This document shows, in pieces, positions 10,162 to 24,337 of a DNA stretch of 51,020 nt. How positions within the stretch are numbered: the first letter of the stretch is position 1; the number at the start of each line of letters is the position of its first letter. The stretch comes from Candidatus Gastranaerophilales bacterium. Lineage in GTDB: Bacteria > Cyanobacteriota > Vampirovibrionia > Gastranaerophilales > Gastranaerophilaceae. The DNA is taken from positions 1-51,020 of the forward strand of contig CALUPY010000019.1 of NCBI GenBank assembly GCA_944322755.1, written 5' to 3'. Both the position numbers and the translations under genes were made by a program. Under the pieces are notes generated by a model, which searched no databases, was not told where the DNA came from, and saw only the letters and a list, made by a program, of their open reading frames with translations.

Positions 10162-10206
10162 TGGTTGCGGGAGCTGGATTTGAACCAACGACCTTCGGGT
10201 TATGAG
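10162..10206. repeat. attL: 45-bp direct repeat, 3' tRNA-fMet fragment
   Basis: Identical to 22974-23018. It holds the anticodon loop, variable region, T-arm, acceptor 3' strand and CCA of tRNA-fMet. Past 10206 the match stops abruptly, so no intact tRNA is present here. Confidence 0.93.
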
Positions 10207-10530
10207 TTGTATAACGCAGTATTGTAGCTGTTTTTAGAATTTATCAGAATTTACCTTTGTTTATTGCGGTGCATGAATTCGAGACTAATTTTATTCTCAT
10301 ATTTTATTAGATTTGATTTTGATTTATCAGAAATTTTGCAACTGATTTGCAACTCAGGGGTAAATATATTTGATTGGGTTTTTAACAACCAACTTAAAAT
10401 AACAATTAAGGAAAGATTGAAAATTAAAGAATTGTGATTTCGCACAAGGGCGGGGGAGGGGTAAAACCATAATACAGCCTCCTTTAATTGGAGTCGTAGA
10501 AAAATTCCGTATTTTTGAAATTGAGATTAT
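10207..10530. other. Left end of the element: non-coding, with paired integrase arm-type sites
   Basis: I see no supported gene in these 324 bases. The notable content is two TTTGCAACT copies at 10335-10343 and 10346-10354 with a 2-nt spacer. They are in the same orientation and spacing as a pair at 22895-22914 at the other end of the element. A 64-codon minus-strand frame (10251-10445) has no ribosome-binding site and overlaps these sites, so I do not call it. Confidence 0.6.
10335..10354 (+). promoter_or_regulatory. Candidate integrase arm-type binding sites (left arm)
   Basis: The sequence has the form TTTGCAACTNNTTTGCAACT (NN is ga), 129 bp inside the attL core. The right-end pair at 22895-22914 has the identical form with NN as tt. 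Paired arm sites flanking a tRNA-derived core are typical for tyrosine integrases of the lambda class. Confidence 0.6.
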
Positions 10531-13500
10531 CTAGCTAGTTTGCTTATTTTTCCTTTTTCTTGAAAATAATTCTTTTCTATATGACAACAAGGCTCTATTC
10601 TTGTTAAAAGCTTTTTGTAACTTATCAACATCCAACTTTATATTTTTTGAGTTTTTAAAATCTGATTTAGAAAATACTCCTTTGGCTTCTTTATCTATAA
10701 GTTTTTTTGCAATGGTTAAAATTTCTTTTTTATATTCATCATCATCAACCAAAATATAACCATTAATCAACAATGACTTCCCATATTCTTTTTGAATATC
10801 ATCATTATAATTTTTCACAATAAAATCTGTTATAAATTTACATTGTTCTATAAAATTTTTATTAAGTTTAATAATTTGTTGAGCTGATACTTTTGAAAGA
10901 ATATTTAAGTTGCCAAATCTCTCATAAATAAGCTTGCACCACAAATCTTTATCCTTAGTATTTTTATATTCTGCAATAAAATTTTCTGTTCTTTTGGTTA
11001 ACCAAGTTTCATCTGCTATTTTAAAAATATCTTGCCAATATTTTTCTAATAAATAATGGTATTCTGCTGGTGTTCGTGGACTCAACCATTCATGATAATA
11101 TCTTTTAATCATAATATCGTTGAAATTTAAAAGTTCTTTATAGGCATATTCGGTATGCTTATTCCAAAGATACATTAGCGAATTGGTTATAATACATTTT
11201 AAGTCGTATGAGTTTTCGATTTTGTTCTTAAATATGGAATATATGGATTCAAAAGCAACTTTTTTATCAATTGTCACATTAGAATCTTTTAATAGTTTAA
11301 GCATATTTTCTGCAATATTTATGACATTATAGCTTGGGAGTTTTTCTTTGTCTTCATGTGGCCATACGTCCTTCATTGAAGCATATAATTTTTCGGTTTT
11401 ATCCGTTTCATCAACTAAATGTTCTGTGATAATATAAGACAAAAACGAATTTAGTGTGGAAGTTTTTATAATATCAAAGAATTGAGCAACACTATCAAAT
11501 AATGTATCAAAATAATCTTCATAATCATTACTAATAGCTAGTTCCAAAGCCTCATACATGTTTGAAATGTGCTGTATAAATATTTCATTAGAATGGTTTT
11601 GCTTATCTAAATGATATAACAACTGATAATATCTTTCGCTATTTTTATCATCTACTGTATTTGTGTAGTCTTCAAAAACATTTTCAAGTATTTTAGACAA
11701 TATTTCAATTTGTTTTTCTTTAATATATTTTTGAGCAAGTAAAATCAATAAATCTGTTTTAATTGTTTCTTCTTCAGATATTTCATCAGTAATAAAAATA
11801 TTTTTTACAAGTTTATTTAATATGTTTTCAGCCTTTTCAGGGAATAAATCTCCATATTTAGAAAATAATTTATCAAATAATGGGGTAGACTCATTTGCTA
11901 AAATATTAACCAAACTGGATATACTAGATTCAATAATATTATTGGCACCATTTAATTTAATACATAAATTAATCATTGAAATTAAATTGTTGATAACATT
12001 TTCTAGATTTTCTAATTGTACTGCTTGAACATAATATTTTATAATTCTTTGAGCATAGGAATCTATAATTTCTGGAATTAAAGCTTTATCAACTTTATTA
12101 AAGGCATTCTCTTCAAATATTAATTTTTCAAAATAATTGATAATCTTTATATTATTATTCGCCAATCCCTTACTTATAGTATTTTCAAGTTCTTTGGGCT
12201 TAACATTTGTAGTATTAGATATTATATAATCTATGTGCAAAATATAAGACTCCACATCTTCTTCTGCATTATTTAAAAATTCTAACAAATCATCTACATA
12301 ATTAAGAGTTAAATCATCTAAAAGAGCTTTGCCATAAGTTTTAATGTTTTCTATGTAAAAAGAAACGTCTATTTTATTAACAAAAGATGATTCATTCTCT
12401 GCATTTTTATATTTATATATACCATCATTCAATAATTTTATTAAATTTTTTGTGTTGTTTTTATCTAGTTTTTTGTTTGTATAGTGTTGTTCTAAACCTA
12501 TCTCGATAACTTTTTTATATTGATTTTCACTAGCTTTCTGGGTGATAACTTTACCGTTTTTTACGGTTGCAATTAAATAAGAATATACTTTATTTATATT
12601 TACATCGCTAATATATTCTGTATCTAAAAGTTTTTCAATATAAGAACTCTCTATATTTTTTATAAAATTTTTATCAACTATTGTTTTTGAAATATCATTA
12701 ATTAAAAGTTTAGCATCCTCTCCCTTGTATAGATTAGCGAACATAGATAAAATAATATATGCTTTTTCTCTACGGTCATCATCTTCATGCCCATTAATCT
12801 CTTGTACAACTAAATTCAATTGTGAAGTCTGTAATTCTGAAATTTCTATAGTTTCATCTGTAATTCCAAGATTATCTTTAAATCTTGTTACATTCTGAGT
12901 TATTAAAGAATTATATATTGGAATGGAATTACCCCCGATTTTTCTTTCCAGATTATCCTGCAATAACATTATAAAAGGTTTAATATCATCTGGTATTGCT
13001 ATTGTTTGTATTGAAGCCAAATAACTCTGTAAATTAGAATATTTTTTATCAAATATATAAATATTTTCTTCATTCTCTGGTACATACTTTTTAGCCAGTA
13101 ATTTTAGCATTGTGTTGTCAGCTATTTCATAATTTCTTAAATCAAAAAACTTTTGCATTATAAATCTTAATAACTGAGGTTCAATTATGATATCATTATA
13201 TAATTCTGGAAATTGATTTTTTAAAACAGTTATTATGGCTAAAATATCCAAATGAGAAGTAATAATATTTTTAACCAATAAGCACTCTTTATCTGTTGGA
13301 CAAGAAGGATTATGCTCTTTATTACACAAATCACATTGTTCTTCTCTTTGTTTAGCAATCCACCAAGCCTGCATGTATGAATTTAATATCTGTATAACTG
13401 CTCGTGGACTACTAACTTCAATAGGAATTAAAATATTTAAAATTTTATTAATATTGTAGGTGCTTGATTTTTCTATATCTTTTTCAAATACCTTAAAAGA

Positions 13501-14493
13501 GTCAAGTTGTTTTAGATGTTCCAGTGCAAAACTTTTCATTGATTGATTAGGTAAAATAGGAACATCAATTTTAAATTGGAACACTCTGTCTAAATATTTT
13601 CTTGCGCTATCAATATTTGAGAATGTTGTTTTTGTTTGCGTAATAGATTTTGCTATATGTTCATCATAGCAAGATACAACAAAAATTAAATCGCTTTCTT
13701 TTATATCTAAAAAAATTCTTATTGCGTCTAGTCCATTAATCATTTTGTCAGCAGAAAGCCTGTCTAAATCATCTATAAATACAACGAGTTTGCGTTTATT
13801 TTTCTTTTGAAATTTTTCTTTGAGTAATTCTAAAATGATTTCTTCAAATTGTTCTGAACTAACAATAGGATTAGTGGTAATTGTTCTGGGGATATAACTT
13901 GACATAAGCAGACCACTTTTATCAAAAATGAACTTTGCAATATAAGCCGTACAGGCCATTAGCACAGAATACATTATAGCGGTATTATTTGATTCAAAAT
14001 GAAAAATTGCATTTGCAATACATGCAGAAATTAAAAAAACAATTAAAATAAAAATTATTTGAATGGCTATGGAAACATTATCTTTTAAATCTTCAAAAAT
14101 TTCATTCCAAGATTTAACTTTTTTGGAGTTATCTGTTATGCTTGAATATAGTTTTTGTTTTAAATATTCTTCTTTTTTGCCACTTAATTTTTCATATAAG
14201 CATTTTAATAAAGAACGTCTAACATCTTCACTTTCATAACGCCAAGCATTAAAATCAAGCCAATCATATTTATCTTTTTCTTTATTTAAAAATTCCTCAA
14301 TACATAATTTTTTTATGGAACTTTTACCAACACCCCATTGTCCCAAAAGCCCTATCGAAAAAGGGGGTATATGATTTTCAATAATAGAAAATAGCACATG
14401 GGCATAATGTATATGGCCAAAGTTATCTTCACTTTTATTTTGGATAGCTTTATCTAATATGGATGGCAGTTTTACAATGTTAGTCTCTTTCAT
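10531..14493 (-). CDS. KAP-family membrane-associated P-loop NTPase, probable defence or accessory cargo
   Basis: The 1320-aa protein has the KAP layout: an early Walker A, GQWGVGKSS (residues 51-59), then two hydrophobic membrane helices inserted in the NTPase domain (about 135-190), then Walker B VVFIDDLDRLS (about residues 237-247). A Cys cluster (CDLC, then PSCPTDKEC) follows at about 385-405. The remaining 900 residues are alpha-helical, Asn/Lys/Glu-rich and without motifs I recognise. KAP NTPases are known from phage-exclusion protein PifA and other mobile-element cargo; a defence role here is inference. It is the gene nearest attL, and its own TATAAT lies 6 nt before the ATG. AT content is high even compared with its neighbours. 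Confidence 0.85.
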   Translation of the reverse strand: MKETNIVKLPSILDKAIQNKSEDNFGHIHYAHVLFSIIENHIPPFSIGLLGQWGVGKSSIKKLCIEEFLNKEKDKYDWLDFNAWRYESEDVRRSLLKCLYEKLSGKKEEYLKQKLYSSITDNSKKVKSWNEIFEDLKDNVSIAIQIIFILIVFLISACIANAIFHFESNNTAIMYSVLMACTAYIAKFIFDKSGLLMSSYIPRTITTNPIVSSEQFEEIILELLKEKFQKKNKRKLVVFIDDLDRLSADKMINGLDAIRIFLDIKESDLIFVVSCYDEHIAKSITQTKTTFSNIDSARKYLDRVFQFKIDVPILPNQSMKSFALEHLKQLDSFKVFEKDIEKSSTYNINKILNILIPIEVSSPRAVIQILNSYMQAWWIAKQREEQCDLCNKEHNPSCPTDKECLLVKNIITSHLDILAIITVLKNQFPELYNDIIIEPQLLRFIMQKFFDLRNYEIADNTMLKLLAKKYVPENEENIYIFDKKYSNLQSYLASIQTIAIPDDIKPFIMLLQDNLERKIGGNSIPIYNSLITQNVTRFKDNLGITDETIEISELQTSQLNLVVQEINGHEDDDRREKAYIILSMFANLYKGEDAKLLINDISKTIVDKNFIKNIESSYIEKLLDTEYISDVNINKVYSYLIATVKNGKVITQKASENQYKKVIEIGLEQHYTNKKLDKNNTKNLIKLLNDGIYKYKNAENESSFVNKIDVSFYIENIKTYGKALLDDLTLNYVDDLLEFLNNAEEDVESYILHIDYIISNTTNVKPKELENTISKGLANNNIKIINYFEKLIFEENAFNKVDKALIPEIIDSYAQRIIKYYVQAVQLENLENVINNLISMINLCIKLNGANNIIESSISSLVNILANESTPLFDKLFSKYGDLFPEKAENILNKLVKNIFITDEISEEETIKTDLLILLAQKYIKEKQIEILSKILENVFEDYTNTVDDKNSERYYQLLYHLDKQNHSNEIFIQHISNMYEALELAISNDYEDYFDTLFDSVAQFFDIIKTSTLNSFLSYIITEHLVDETDKTEKLYASMKDVWPHEDKEKLPSYNVINIAENMLKLLKDSNVTIDKKVAFESIYSIFKNKIENSYDLKCIITNSLMYLWNKHTEYAYKELLNFNDIMIKRYYHEWLSPRTPAEYHYLLEKYWQDIFKIADETWLTKRTENFIAEYKNTKDKDLWCKLIYERFGNLNILSKVSAQQIIKLNKNFIEQCKFITDFIVKNYNDDIQKEYGKSLLINGYILVDDDEYKKEILTIAKKLIDKEAKGVFSKSDFKNSKNIKLDVDKLQKAFNKNRALLSYRKELFSRKRKNKQTS

Positions 14494-14499
14494 ATCTCT

Positions 14500-14505
14500 A
14501 TTATA
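14500..14505 (-). promoter_or_regulatory. -10 box with leaderless geometry for the KAP gene
   Basis: A minus-strand TATAAT ends 6 nt before the ATG at 14493, placing the expected start on the A of the ATG. A second TATAAT with an extended TGT lies just upstream and would give a leader of about 10 nt. No convincing -35 box is visible in this AT-rich segment. Confidence 0.4.
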
Positions 14506-14761
14506 ATTATAACATTGATAAATAGTTTATGAATTTGATTTAAACATGTGGTCTTAACAAAACTTTATAGTAAGAATAAATAAAACCCACAGCTTAGTTA
14601 CTAACATTCGCAACAAATATAAATTAACATGGTGCACAGAAATTCACTCTTGCGTTAATATGCGATTATGACGGTATTGCTCATTATTATAACGAGACGC
14701 CTGTTATAAATACCATAAAACAGCTAGATACACGCATACAAATACAAAGGAGTTAATTTTT

Positions 14762-15040
14762 ATGCGCGATAAAAACGCATTAAATCGATTAGAAAGCGGC
14801 TTGCGAGCAAAGGGCGAAGGGCAAACGCAGGCCCGTTTATTGCGAGCAAACAAGCAAATTTCGGACGCAAGAATGATTTTATACGATTTACAAGTGTTCA
14901 TTAAGTTAGGTGTCCTTGCTAGCGATTCCGGTATTATTGATGAAGAATTACAACTCAATAAAGACAAAGACGATTATTACATACTTTTCAAAACATTAAA
15001 CAAAAAGTTGCAAAAAGCAATAGACACTTTGCAGACCTAA
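14762..15040 (+). CDS. Small element protein, function unknown
   Basis: A 92-aa, mostly helical, charged protein with no recognisable domain. A good AAAGGAG lies upstream of the ATG. Its coding sequence has more G and C than the rest of the element (several GCG, GGC and CGC codons), so it may have another origin. It is convergent with the repressor gene, with the last 4 nt overlapping. The 268 bases upstream, to the KAP gene, hold no other gene. Confidence 0.65.
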   Translation: MRDKNALNRLESGLRAKGEGQTQARLLRANKQISDARMILYDLQVFIKLGVLASDSGIIDEELQLNKDKDDYYILFKTLNKKLQKAIDTLQT

Positions 15041-15252
15041 AGTTCTTCAAACAGATTAGAAGGTTTAATATTCAGGGCTCTTGCGATTTTAAACACATTT
15101 TCAACAGTTGTGTTTCTCTCACCTCTTTCAACCATACCAATAAAATTAGGGGACATATCAAGGATTTCAGCTAATTCAAGCTGGGTTAACTCTTTATCAA
15201 GTCTTAGAAATTTTAATCTCTTGCCAAACTTTTGTAAATCTTTTTTACTCAT
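15037..15252 (-). CDS. XRE/Cro-CI-type helix-turn-helix repressor
   Basis: A 71-aa protein that is essentially one HTH_3 domain: KFGKRLKFLRLDKELTQLELAEI, then SPNFIGMVERGERN as the recognition helix, and KIARALNIKPSNLFEEL at the end. It probably controls the element's own promoters. The ATG at 15252 fits the domain start; a TTG ten codons upstream is possible, and neither has a Shine-Dalgarno. It is divergent from the secreted-protein operon at 15375, with an inverted repeat between them at 15287-15307. Confidence 0.85.
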   Translation of the reverse strand: MSKKDLQKFGKRLKFLRLDKELTQLELAEILDMSPNFIGMVERGERNTTVENVFKIARALNIKPSNLFEEL

Positions 15253-15286
15253 ATTGCAATTTTCGTGGTAATATAAAAGCAATGGA

Positions 15287-15670: not shown

Positions 15671-16345
15671 ATGAAAAAGTTTTTAGTTTTGTTCGCAGTA
15701 TTAATGCTCTTTGCTTCAACTCCTATGGCAGAAGCTAAAAAGCCAACTCCAGATGATATTGCACCTGTTGGATTCAAGATTTTAGAATCTAACAATATCC
15801 AAAAAAGAATGGTTTTTAAATATACATTTTCTATCAAAAATCCCAGAGCGACATTAGATTACAAGCCGGAAAATATTGGTCTAGATTATACCGGACGAGT
15901 GTTGTGGGTTTATGGTGATGTTTTGAATTTAACTGATAATGAAGATGAATTAGCAGGACTTTTAAGCCATGCAATAGCTATGGGTGAAAATTCTTACAAA
16001 GGTCTATTTAGAGGTTTCTTCTCTCATGCAGCGTATTCCTTTAATTCCAGACCAAAAGAAAATAAGGCTGATTTAAAAGCAGTAGATTATATGGTAAATG
16101 CCGGTTACAATCCGCTTGCATTGATTACGATTTACAGTAAAACACTTGCCCAAACACGCTATGAGTGGTGTCATTATTATCCATTAGCAACTAACAGAAT
16201 GATGAACATTTACAAATACATCTATAAAAATTATCCAGAATACTTAAAAAATAATGCATATAAAAATAATATTTACTATCAAAACTTTTTATCTAACACA
16301 ACAAAAGAAATGGCCAAGTTTAACAAGAAAGTTGAGAAAATTTAG
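15671..16345 (+). CDS. Exported M48-like protein with a degenerate active site
   Basis: The 224-aa protein has a signal peptide (cleavage near AEA-KK, residue 22). The mature domain resembles the M48 metallopeptidase core: YGDVLNLTDNEDELAGLLSH corresponds to the segment leading to HEXXH, and ENKADLKAVDYMVNAGYNP (130-148) to the downstream EADxxA/AGYxP segment. The zinc and catalytic residues are lost: HEXXH reads HAIAM at 100-104, and the third ligand Glu is Lys. It is therefore probably a non-catalytic relative acting in the periplasm, if the M48 link is right. The next gene begins at the base after its stop codon. Confidence 0.6.
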   Translation: MKKFLVLFAVLMLFASTPMAEAKKPTPDDIAPVGFKILESNNIQKRMVFKYTFSIKNPRATLDYKPENIGLDYTGRVLWVYGDVLNLTDNEDELAGLLSHAIAMGENSYKGLFRGFFSHAAYSFNSRPKENKADLKAVDYMVNAGYNPLALITIYSKTLAQTRYEWCHYYPLATNRMMNIYKYIYKNYPEYLKNNAYKNNIYYQNFLSNTTKEMAKFNKKVEKI

Positions 16346-20740: not shown

Positions 20741-20781
20741 GGCACTGTGAGCACCGTGCCGCATCAATGACACGGTGCTCG
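20741..20781 (+). terminator. Alternative hairpins between xis and int (terminator or attenuator)
   Basis: A perfect 10-bp inverted repeat (20749-20758 with 20771-20780) is followed by a T-rich stretch. An overlapping second hairpin GGCAC/GTGCC (20741-20745 with 20756-20760) uses part of the same left arm, so the two are mutually exclusive. This could limit read-through into the integrase gene. Confidence 0.55.
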
Positions 20782-20873
20782 TTGTGTTTAATGAATTTAA
20801 ATTAGCAAATATTTGCAATATGGCTTACAAATCTGTATACACTCGACATAATGAAATAAAGGAACAAAAACAA

Positions 20874-21983
20874 ATGGCAATAAGAAAAAATAAAAAGACG
20901 AATAAGTGGGAATTTGATTACAAAGACCTTAGAGGCAAACGGCAAATAAAGAAAGGTTTTAAAACCAAAGCAGAAGCAGAAAGAGCTTATAATAAAATGG
21001 TTGAAGATTTGAACAAAGGTTTAAATCCCGTTAATGCAAAAATGTCATTAAAAGAAGCTGGCGAGTTATATTTACGACTTCACGCAAGTTCAAATTGCAA
21101 ACCTTCTACTTACAAAACTTACTGCGGATACTTGCAAAATCTATTAGTTCCATTCTTTGGCAAGCTAAACATCAATGAAATCAGTCCTATACTTGTAAAA
21201 GAATTCATAAAACAAATGCAAGACAAAGGACACCAAAATTCAACAATCAACAAATACGTAAAATTCATAAGTGCAATCTATAACTTTATGATAGACAGTG
21301 ACGCAGCAACAAGAAATCCTATTGCAAGAATCAAATCATTAAAAGAAGTTAAAAATGATAAGATTAGAGCTTTATCAACAGAAGAAGTTCAGGCTTTATT
21401 AGCTAAAACAAAAGTTGTTTATCCAGATTTCTATCCACTATTGTTTACAGCTTTATTTACAGGTATGAGACGAGGGGAATTGTTGGCTTTAACTTGGGAT
21501 TCGATAAATTGGGTAACAGGTAAAATCACAATCGATAAAAACTATGTTAATGGAAGGTTGGGGACGCCAAAATCAAGCAAAACCAGATATGTTGATATGA
21601 GTAGTGAATTAGCAAGAGTGTTAAAAGAATGGAAACTTGCTTGTCCTCATAGTGAAATAAACTTGGTGTTTCCAAATACTGAAGGAAAATATCAAAGTGC
21701 AGATAATATGATAAAAAGAAGATTTATACCTTCATTAAATCGCGCCGGCATTGATTTAATTCGTTTCCACGATTTAAGACATACTTATGCCAGTTTGCTT
21801 CTTGCCAACGGCGCCCCAATGAAGTATGTTCAGACCCAACTGGGACACGCTTCAATCACTATGACAATGGACTTATATACCCACTTGTTGCCAGAAGTTA
21901 ATGATAAATGTGTGAATCTATTAAATAACATTGTTAATTCAACAATTACGTCCAAAGAAGAAATTAAAAGATTTGGGACTTAA
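20874..21983 (+). CDS. int: Tyrosine recombinase (integrase)
   Basis: It catalyses integration and excision of the element at tRNA-fMet. The 369-aa protein has an N-terminal arm-binding (AP2-like) domain starting AIRKNKKTNKWEFDYKD, a SAM-like core-binding domain (about 55-150) and a catalytic domain. The catalytic residues are R in TGMRRGELLAL, HDLRH (H-x-x-R), H in LGHAS and the tyrosine in MDLYTHL. I choose the ATG with AAAGGA upstream; an open stretch of 33 codons before it lacks one. A 12-bp palindrome GCAAATATTTGC (20805-20816) lies in the leader. The gene is convergent with the HNH-like gene (4-nt overlap). Confidence 0.95.
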   Translation: MAIRKNKKTNKWEFDYKDLRGKRQIKKGFKTKAEAERAYNKMVEDLNKGLNPVNAKMSLKEAGELYLRLHASSNCKPSTYKTYCGYLQNLLVPFFGKLNINEISPILVKEFIKQMQDKGHQNSTINKYVKFISAIYNFMIDSDAATRNPIARIKSLKEVKNDKIRALSTEEVQALLAKTKVVYPDFYPLLFTALFTGMRRGELLALTWDSINWVTGKITIDKNYVNGRLGTPKSSKTRYVDMSSELARVLKEWKLACPHSEINLVFPNTEGKYQSADNMIKRRFIPSLNRAGIDLIRFHDLRHTYASLLLANGAPMKYVQTQLGHASITMTMDLYTHLLPEVNDKCVNLLNNIVNSTITSKEEIKRFGT

Positions 21984-22879
21984 AATTTGTTTCCTTGAAG
22001 TTGAGGATATGATTCTATAATTTTATTTAAGATATCTTTTTTGTGATATTTCAAGAATTGTCTTTTGCCTGTTAATTCTTTAAAGTACACATCTCCCAAA
22101 TCATTCTGTTGAAATTTAGAAATATCGTTTGTTATTTGAAAAACTGCAGAATGAAATTTATCATTTCCCCAAAAACTAACACCTAAACATAATGCATCTG
22201 CGTAATAGCTTTCCCATATAATGTGACAGTCTGAAAAGAATTTTCCTTTTATAATAATATTCATGAAATCGTCTTTATACACGTTAGAATCACTAGAAAA
22301 AATACCTAATTCGCATCCTAATTTAATTTCACCAGACCTGAGTAGTTCAATAGGTTTTGCAGAATTCATTAAAGTTCTTAATTCCTTATGAAAACCATAT
22401 TTTACAAAATTTTCACCATATAAATTATAAGCAACCCCTAAAAAGAATTTTGAATAAAAACGTATGTATTTATCAATCTCAATGGTAATAGAACACTTAA
22501 ATTGCGATTGTGGTAAATAATTGGAAGCTTTTTCATATCTAGTTTTATTATTTTTATCAGTTCCATGGATTTTAAGTATAACATCTTGAGGTGAAAAAAT
22601 AACATCTGCACTTTCACCATTTAATAACTCTGAATTTTTAAAAACCGCGGAAGGAATTTTTTTGCTATATCCCTTAAATCCATAATGTTTTGTTGCAAAT
22701 TGATTTATCAAATCATTGACAAAAGGTTCATCTATAACATTACCTAATTCATTGTTTAATTTTTTATCTACAAAAATAAAAAAATCAAGTTGTCCGCCCA
22801 ATTTTTTGGGGATAATGTGTTCTTTTGTAATATCTTCTTCATTAATTTCTTTATCTGAGTATATACAATATTTTTTCAT
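21980..22879 (-). CDS. HNH-endonuclease-like protein with degenerate zinc ligands
   Basis: The 299-aa protein starts like an HNH_5 domain: KYCIYSDKEI, then ITKEHIIPKKLGG at about residues 17-29. In usual members two CxxC pairs bind zinc. Here only the first cysteine of the first pair remains, and the second pair is replaced (FVDKKLNNELG). The remaining 250 residues are not recognised. AAGGTGAT precedes the ATG. As the gene next to attR, outside the integrase, it lies in a usual cargo position; a defence role is inference, and the nuclease may be inactive or use another metal mode. Confidence 0.6.
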   Translation of the reverse strand: MKKYCIYSDKEINEEDITKEHIIPKKLGGQLDFFIFVDKKLNNELGNVIDEPFVNDLINQFATKHYGFKGYSKKIPSAVFKNSELLNGESADVIFSPQDVILKIHGTDKNNKTRYEKASNYLPQSQFKCSITIEIDKYIRFYSKFFLGVAYNLYGENFVKYGFHKELRTLMNSAKPIELLRSGEIKLGCELGIFSSDSNVYKDDFMNIIIKGKFFSDCHIIWESYYADALCLGVSFWGNDKFHSAVFQITNDISKFQQNDLGDVYFKELTGKRQFLKYHKKDILNKIIESYPQLQGNKF

Positions 22880-22973: not shown

Positions 22974-23050
<77 letters not shown>

Positions 23051-24184: not shown

Positions 24185-24337
24185 AGAAGCGAAATCGGTC
24201 GGGCACGCCGTGGCGAAGCCCCAGTGCCCAAGCGTAGTCGGTCGAAGAAACGGAGAAATTCGGAGAATTTCGAAGTGAGAAGTAAGACCGACGAAGCGTC
24301 CGTATTTCAAGAAGCGAAATCGGTCGGGCACGCCGTG
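24185..24337. repeat. GC-rich structured element bounded by a 28-bp direct repeat
   Basis: The same 28 bases (24185-24212 and 24310-24337) enclose a hairpin-rich core in otherwise AT-rich DNA. Stems include GGGCAC/GTGCCC (24201-24206 with 24224-24229), GTCGGTC/GACCGAC (24237-24243 with 24286-24292) and GAAATTC/GAATTTC (24255-24261 with 24265-24271). No coding frame is evident. It looks like a dispersed palindromic repeat, MITE-like unit or structured RNA. Confidence 0.6.

Follow-up and report, generated by a model that had tools for sequence, protein, structure and literature searches.

KAP proteins are a broad group with non-defence members in other organisms. KAP NTPases such as PifA and Tmn stop phages; Tmn, described as having a KAP NTPase and a pair of transmembrane domains, blocks phages (PMC11846954). 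The large protein analyzed here is, judged by its sequence, a member of the KAP group that includes PifA, QatA, and Tmn. Its gene lies in a stretch of 51,020 nucleotides (the window) from a Candidatus Gastranaerophilales genome, on an element of about 12857 bp integrated at tRNA-Met, of which it makes up 3963 bp (31%), in line with the "almost a third" given by an earlier sequence-only reading of this DNA.

Architecture of the KAP protein

The KAP open reading frame is a single unbroken frame of 1320 codons on the minus strand (Table 1), and its product scored 108.5 bits against the Pfam model PF07693 (KAP_NTPase; cut-off, 20), as expected of a KAP P-loop NTPase. KAP was the sole Pfam family above cut-off in the 1320-aa protein, and no STAND family exceeded its own cut-off. 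Both predicted membrane helices fall in the interval from Walker A to Walker B (residues 58 to 237), and such an insertion is a trait of KAP proteins. The gene is real: its reading frame is preserved in full-length homologues at 98, 88, and 55% identity, and most changes relative to the one at 55% are silent (dN/dS of about 0.2 over residues 1 to 938). The sequence-only reading had described a membrane NTPase of this length with two helices in its NTPase domain, a cysteine cluster, and 900 residues of unrecognized helical sequence, and each of these features was recovered, the helices as predictions: about 950 residues following residue 372 had no assignment in Pfam, PHROG, or NCBIfam, and structure prediction made this region nearly all-helical.

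The four cysteines follow the NTPase domain with the spacing C387-x2-C390-x7-C398-x5-C404 and may form a metal site. Every element-borne homologue has them, even G610 at 40% identity, whereas more distant KAP homologues do not, so that they are confined to the element-borne clade. As to the proposal that the gene has its own promoter, the motif TGTTATAAT is conserved upstream of four KAP homologues, down to 55% identity, but promoter-like motifs in the region upstream of KAP were no more frequent than in shuffled sequences.

Table 1. Features of the KAP gene and its element in the window, and contents of the cargo slot in related elements
Feature	Position	Strand	Remark
KAP P-loop NTPase, 1320 aa	10531-14493	-	unbroken frame; E of 5e-31 to Pfam KAP_NTPase
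KAP NTPase domain, residues 29-372	13378-14409	-	Pfam KAP_NTPase
Walker A GQWGVGKS, residues 51-58	14320-14343	-	motif
Walker B VVFIDDLDR, residues 237-245	13759-13785	-	motif
Predicted membrane helix 1, residues 142-160	14014-14070	-	hydropathy 3.0
Predicted membrane helix 2, residues 172-190	13924-13980	-	hydropathy 1.7
Four-cysteine cluster C387/C390/C398/C404	13282-13335	-	possible metal site
C-terminal helical region, residues about 520-1312	10558-12936	-	predicted alpha-solenoid; models of middling confidence
Divergent patch, residues 939-1010	11464-11679	-	78% identical to L018
Exchanged segment, residues 1050-1250	10744-11346	-	35% protein identity to L019
Extended -10 promoter-like motif TGTTATAAT	14506-14514	-	just upstream of KAP ATG
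attL core, 45 bp	10162-10206		copy of tRNA-Met 3' part
att-proximal noncoding block	10177-10520		conserved in sister elements
Exchangeable cargo cassette	10521-14595		sequence outside common to KAP-less sister elements
Small conserved element gene	14762-15040	+	right border of slot
XRE-type regulator	15037-15282	-	conserved in sister elements
Secreted M48-like protein	15671-16345	+	element core; no HExxH motif
Probable primase/helicase, 858 aa	17991-20567	+	element core; function inferred
Tyrosine integrase	20775-21983	+
HNH_5 protein	21980-22879	-	second variable slot, between integrase and tRNA
tRNA-Met, integration site	22974-23050	-	attR core 22974-23018
Slot of L092			NsnA/GmrSD-type, C5-methylase
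Slot of L093			Fic, NsnA/GmrSD-type
Slot of L096			HamB-like helicase
Slot of L097			OLD-like ATPase, C5-methylase
Slot of L098			C5-methylase, HATPase matching REase_II
Slot of L099			GmrSD, MutH-type REase, C5-methylase
Slot of L101			C5-methylase, AAA ATPase, protein like MutH-type REase of L099
Slot of L102			same set as L098 by sequence; methylase confirmed
Slot of L103			C5-methylase, Avs2-like NTPase, AbiH
Slot of L105			HamA, HamB, GmrSD, C5-methylase
Slot of L128			KAP, MspI-type R-M system

A defence cargo slot in a mobile element

The element is real: its left att core repeats the 3' part of tRNA-Met, and sister elements end in an identical core. Between the att cores lie the genes for the KAP protein, the small protein, the XRE regulator, secreted proteins, the probable primase/helicase, the tyrosine integrase, and the HNH_5 protein. 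The integrase, the small gene, and the XRE regulator recur in most sister elements; among 194 relatives, the small gene was present in 16 and close KAP homologues in 2. DNA comparison with the sister elements showed that the block at 10177 to 10520 and the sequence from about 14596 onward are conserved and that what lies in between is not shared, which delimits a cassette with KAP as its only content.

Sister elements thus present the same flanking blocks with different genes in the slot, as the sequence-only reading had anticipated in calling the gene cargo at the variable end. All 10 KAP-less slots that were checked with HMMs include at least one gene of a restriction-modification (R-M) or other defence family: cytosine methylases, a MutH-type restriction enzyme, Hachiman, GmrSD, AbiH, an Avs2-like protein, NsnA/PD-T4-2-like proteins, and an OLD-like ATPase, with matches to HamA and HamB at 1e-115 and 5e-301. 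A C5-methylase was found in 9 of 11 slots, against 0 to 5 per whole genome of about 2 Mb, in elements that are related to one another and so are not independent draws. The tally of 11 comprises the 10 KAP-less slots and that of G610, and the listed slots count L128 as the eleventh; it omits L094, L095, and L100 (slot cut by a contig end or element of degenerate appearance), L104 (cargo outside the HMM search), and L106 and L107 (which fall short of the slot). The choice of cargo clearly departs from random. With fixed flanks and different defence cargo in sister elements, the site behaves as a defence hotspot, and these observations support the view that the KAP gene is cargo in a defence slot at the variable end of the element.

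With its integrase and probable replication protein, the element might also keep the KAP gene for its own service, to exclude superinfecting related elements or helper phages, or for maintenance, rather than for general defence; KAP proteins of Campylobacter prophages have been proposed to confer superinfection immunity (PMC3995785). KAP-less sister elements, however, bear R-M and Abi genes instead, and most distant KAP homologues are found outside this element type, and we consider such a service role unlikely.

Several further observations concern the element itself. L096 (5199 to 6341) and L097 (13132 to 14274) each carry a 380-aa gene that looks Fic-like by eye; the two are nearly identical and lie beside otherwise different cargo, so exchange in the slot affects individual genes and not only complete systems. 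The noncoding block next to attL is kept in sister elements regardless of cargo and may carry recombination sites; an Rfam scan gave no match in it and found only the tRNA. The secreted M48-like protein has LLSHAIAMG in place of the HExxH zinc motif, and 130 of 194 related genomes encode relatives, most often more than one each; it may be an inactive peptidase that serves in binding. The second slot, between the integrase and the tRNA, also varies, with a TIR gene in L103 (18760 to 19488), a SEFIR gene in L106 (33 to 944), and a nucleotidyltransferase gene in L019 (1355 to 2128) at the place of HNH_5. Just outside the element, a perfect 28-bp direct repeat (24185 to 24212 and 24310 to 24337) lies in noncoding sequence. 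Integrase-like matches in L074, L075, and L076 (G013, G046, and G039) were reported with in-frame stops, yet these loci contain open reading frames of normal length; the stops may precede the start.

Segmental exchange and transfer between genera

The KAP gene of the window and that of L019, from another genus (G091), are 99.9% identical in DNA over residues 1 to 959 (2.9 kb), with 4 codons differing, whereas the protein identity of a housekeeping helicase from these genomes is no more than 67%; the KAP gene therefore moved recently between genera. After the nearly identical part, protein identity drops in the segment listed in Table 1 and recovers to 76% at the end, and the differences are clustered far beyond random placement (log10 p of -136). 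At silent sites, divergence is 0 up to residue 938 but exceeds 1 beyond residue 1050, indicating that the segment was replaced and not slowly mutated.

Other pairs show a comparable picture. L018, from a third genus (G219), is nearly identical to the window gene outside the patch at residues 939 to 1010. The KAP proteins of L021 and G610 are 22 to 53% identical up to residue 938 and 78 to 97% identical from residue 939 to the end, and those of G478 and G325 are 39% identical at residues 546 to 740 and 98% identical at residues 741 to 938. The partial gene L020 is close to the window gene around residues 401 to 740 and 39% identical to it across the membrane-helix region. Three homologue pairs thus switch identity at different places in the C-terminal half, and the pattern, as read from these alignments, is one of repeated exchange, mostly of C-terminal segments. 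A single misassembly, considered as the cause of the mosaic, could mimic the pattern between the window and L019 but cannot explain that between L021 and G610, because their shared C-terminal part is itself 5 to 21% diverged in DNA. The exchange could also reflect gene conversion that has nothing to do with sensing.

Predicted structure

Models of the KAP protein were of middling confidence (pLDDT of 63 to 67, pTM of 0.38), and in the region after the NTPase, confidence was good only at residues of about 520 to 730 and 970 to 1310. The residues after 372 are predicted to form helical repeats. The best structural neighbours of the C-terminal model were many HEAT/ARM-type solenoids, unspecific and without a clear winner, and matches to viral structures were equally unspecific. 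For the NTPase, structural comparison returned Cdc6/ORC AAA+ domains (Z of about 14) and RdrA of RADAR (Z of 12.4), and there were weaker long-range matches to Avs3 (Z of 10.7) and Avs4 (Z of 8.8), both with high rmsd. A sequence search against solved structures gave no convincing match to the KAP family.

KAP homologues in other contexts

The KAP family has a patchy distribution, occurring in 10 of 383 genomes of the bacterial family. When neighbourhoods were inspected for defence genes, more distant Gastranaerophilales homologues were found to adjoin R-M genes in all four resolved cases (MspI type; type II with two C5-methylases; type I HsdM-S-R; AlwI type). The KAP genes of G478, G411, and G325 are about 32% identical to the window gene in the NTPase half, with G478 and G411 97% identical to each other; their neighbours are the type II system with two C5-methylases, the type I HsdM-S-R genes, and D12 methylases with the AlwI enzyme.

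This adjacency raises the question of whether the KAP protein is a partner of R-M systems that detects the phage proteins or DNA modifications by which restriction is overcome and, as a second line, stops the cell. The mapping of escape from Tmn to the phage DNA-modification gene nmad5 would fit such a role, but deletion of nmad5 gave no escape (PMC11846954). Moreover, KAP is the only slot gene in the window and in the close homologues L018, L019, and L021, and R-M genes occupy the slot equally often without KAP; we give the partnership a small chance of being correct.

Elsewhere, a rhizobial relative sits in a plasmid island with an integrase, and a profile scan of a viral collection revealed a contig with a KAP homologue beside a gene for a GTA-like tail protein; an earlier scan of viral contigs had found no KAP homologue, nor did the phage record collection contain one. 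Plasmid records held no close KAP homologue, only rhizobial, haloarchaeal, and Dietzia KAP proteins. We know of no cognate phage of these uncultured Gastranaerophilales hosts. Homologues are thus not confined to core chromosomal loci but lie in elements, beside R-M genes, in the rhizobial island, and on the viral-collection contig; a core-genome origin was rejected.

That the protein is a membrane NTPase with a signaling, scaffolding, or metabolic function, mobile by chance, is conceivable for so broad a family with its non-defence members; but the slot content, the R-M adjacency, the patchy distribution, and the segmental exchange all argue against a non-defence function, which appears very unlikely.

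Proposed function

The domain layout, the defence cargo slot, the recent transfer between genera, and the C-terminal segmental exchange are computed results. A role of the KAP protein in phage defence, with partnership to R-M systems counted among such roles, has strong backing from the genomic context and seems probable, although the co-localization with defence genes could be hitchhiking. For the mechanism, we infer an anti-phage activity, sensing by the solenoid, and an effect on the membrane, as follows. The gene would be carried as an exchangeable anti-phage cassette by the tRNA-Met-integrated element. The C-terminal solenoid, above all its last third, is a likely sensor given its position and its exchange, and would respond to some sign of infection, for which a phage protein is the best candidate. 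Its recognition might release or assemble the KAP NTPase, which would act as a switch, with its two inserted helices in the inner membrane; the effect would probably run through this hairpin, and the altered state would damage or depolarize the membrane, halting the infected cell ahead of phage release. A single-gene defence of this kind, with sensor, switch, and membrane effect all as described, is the model toward which we lean.

More tentatively, large KAP NTPases might constitute a family of membrane-anchored receptors in which the C-terminal sensor recombines while the NTPase and membrane part stays nearly constant, so that specificity is reshuffled from strain to strain and across genera, as in NLR-type receptors. 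Natural recombination marks the C-terminal segment that most likely sets specificity, and the recombined alleles provide natural pairs identical elsewhere, which makes sensing approachable by segment swaps.

Comparison with known systems

By description, Tmn is the nearest tested protein to the window protein: both are single large gene products with a KAP NTPase and two membrane segments, a combination reported for Tmn as a single-gene system, in a mobile defence context. Most Tmn homologues are found in Gammaproteobacteria (PMC11846954), in contrast to this gastranaerophilalean protein, and no Tmn model was among its PADLOC or NCBIfam matches. PifA of the F plasmid, known for phage exclusion of the T7 type, is the best PADLOC match (4.5e-23), and the kinship that the sequence-only reading saw with it holds for the NTPase domain and not for the rest: the model has 720 aa and matches stretches of the NTPase region only (the best aligns KAP residues 231 to 390 with model positions 179 to 330), leaving the long C-terminal helical region without a counterpart. 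QatA of QatABCD shares the KAP NTPase domain (E of about 1e-18 to 1e-21), but identity with QatA was rejected at 76 bits against an NCBIfam equivalog cut-off of 600, and a PADLOC scan of neighbouring genes found no QatB, QatC, or QatD beside the KAP gene, which is alone in its cassette.

The Avs/STAND proteins place an NTPase before a long helical sensor, an arrangement that the window protein may share, its structural resemblance to Avs3 and Avs4 being at the level of architecture; the window protein differs in having a KAP rather than a STAND NTPase, helices inside the NTPase, and no N-terminal effector domain. Plasmid-borne "P-loop NTPase fold proteins" of Ensifer, Sinorhizobium, and Mesorhizobium (1342 to 1357 aa) are full-length relatives with an identity of about 30% in the first 545 residues, but they lack the cysteine cluster, are only about 12% identical in the C-terminal half, and have DUF4238 genes nearby; one DUF4238 protein is an anti-T7 system in Escherichia coli (PMC9122126). 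The hotspots of P2 phages and P4 satellites likewise hold varied defence systems in a small slot at a fixed place (PMC9122126), whereas the element described here is of a different type, belongs to Gastranaerophilales, and showed no signs of a helper phage. The present locus thus adds a defence hotspot in Gastranaerophilales, little-studied gut bacteria, in which KAP genes alternate with restriction systems; what appears to be new is a KAP NTPase of probable defence type whose C-terminal region recombines and whose slot is shared with restriction systems.
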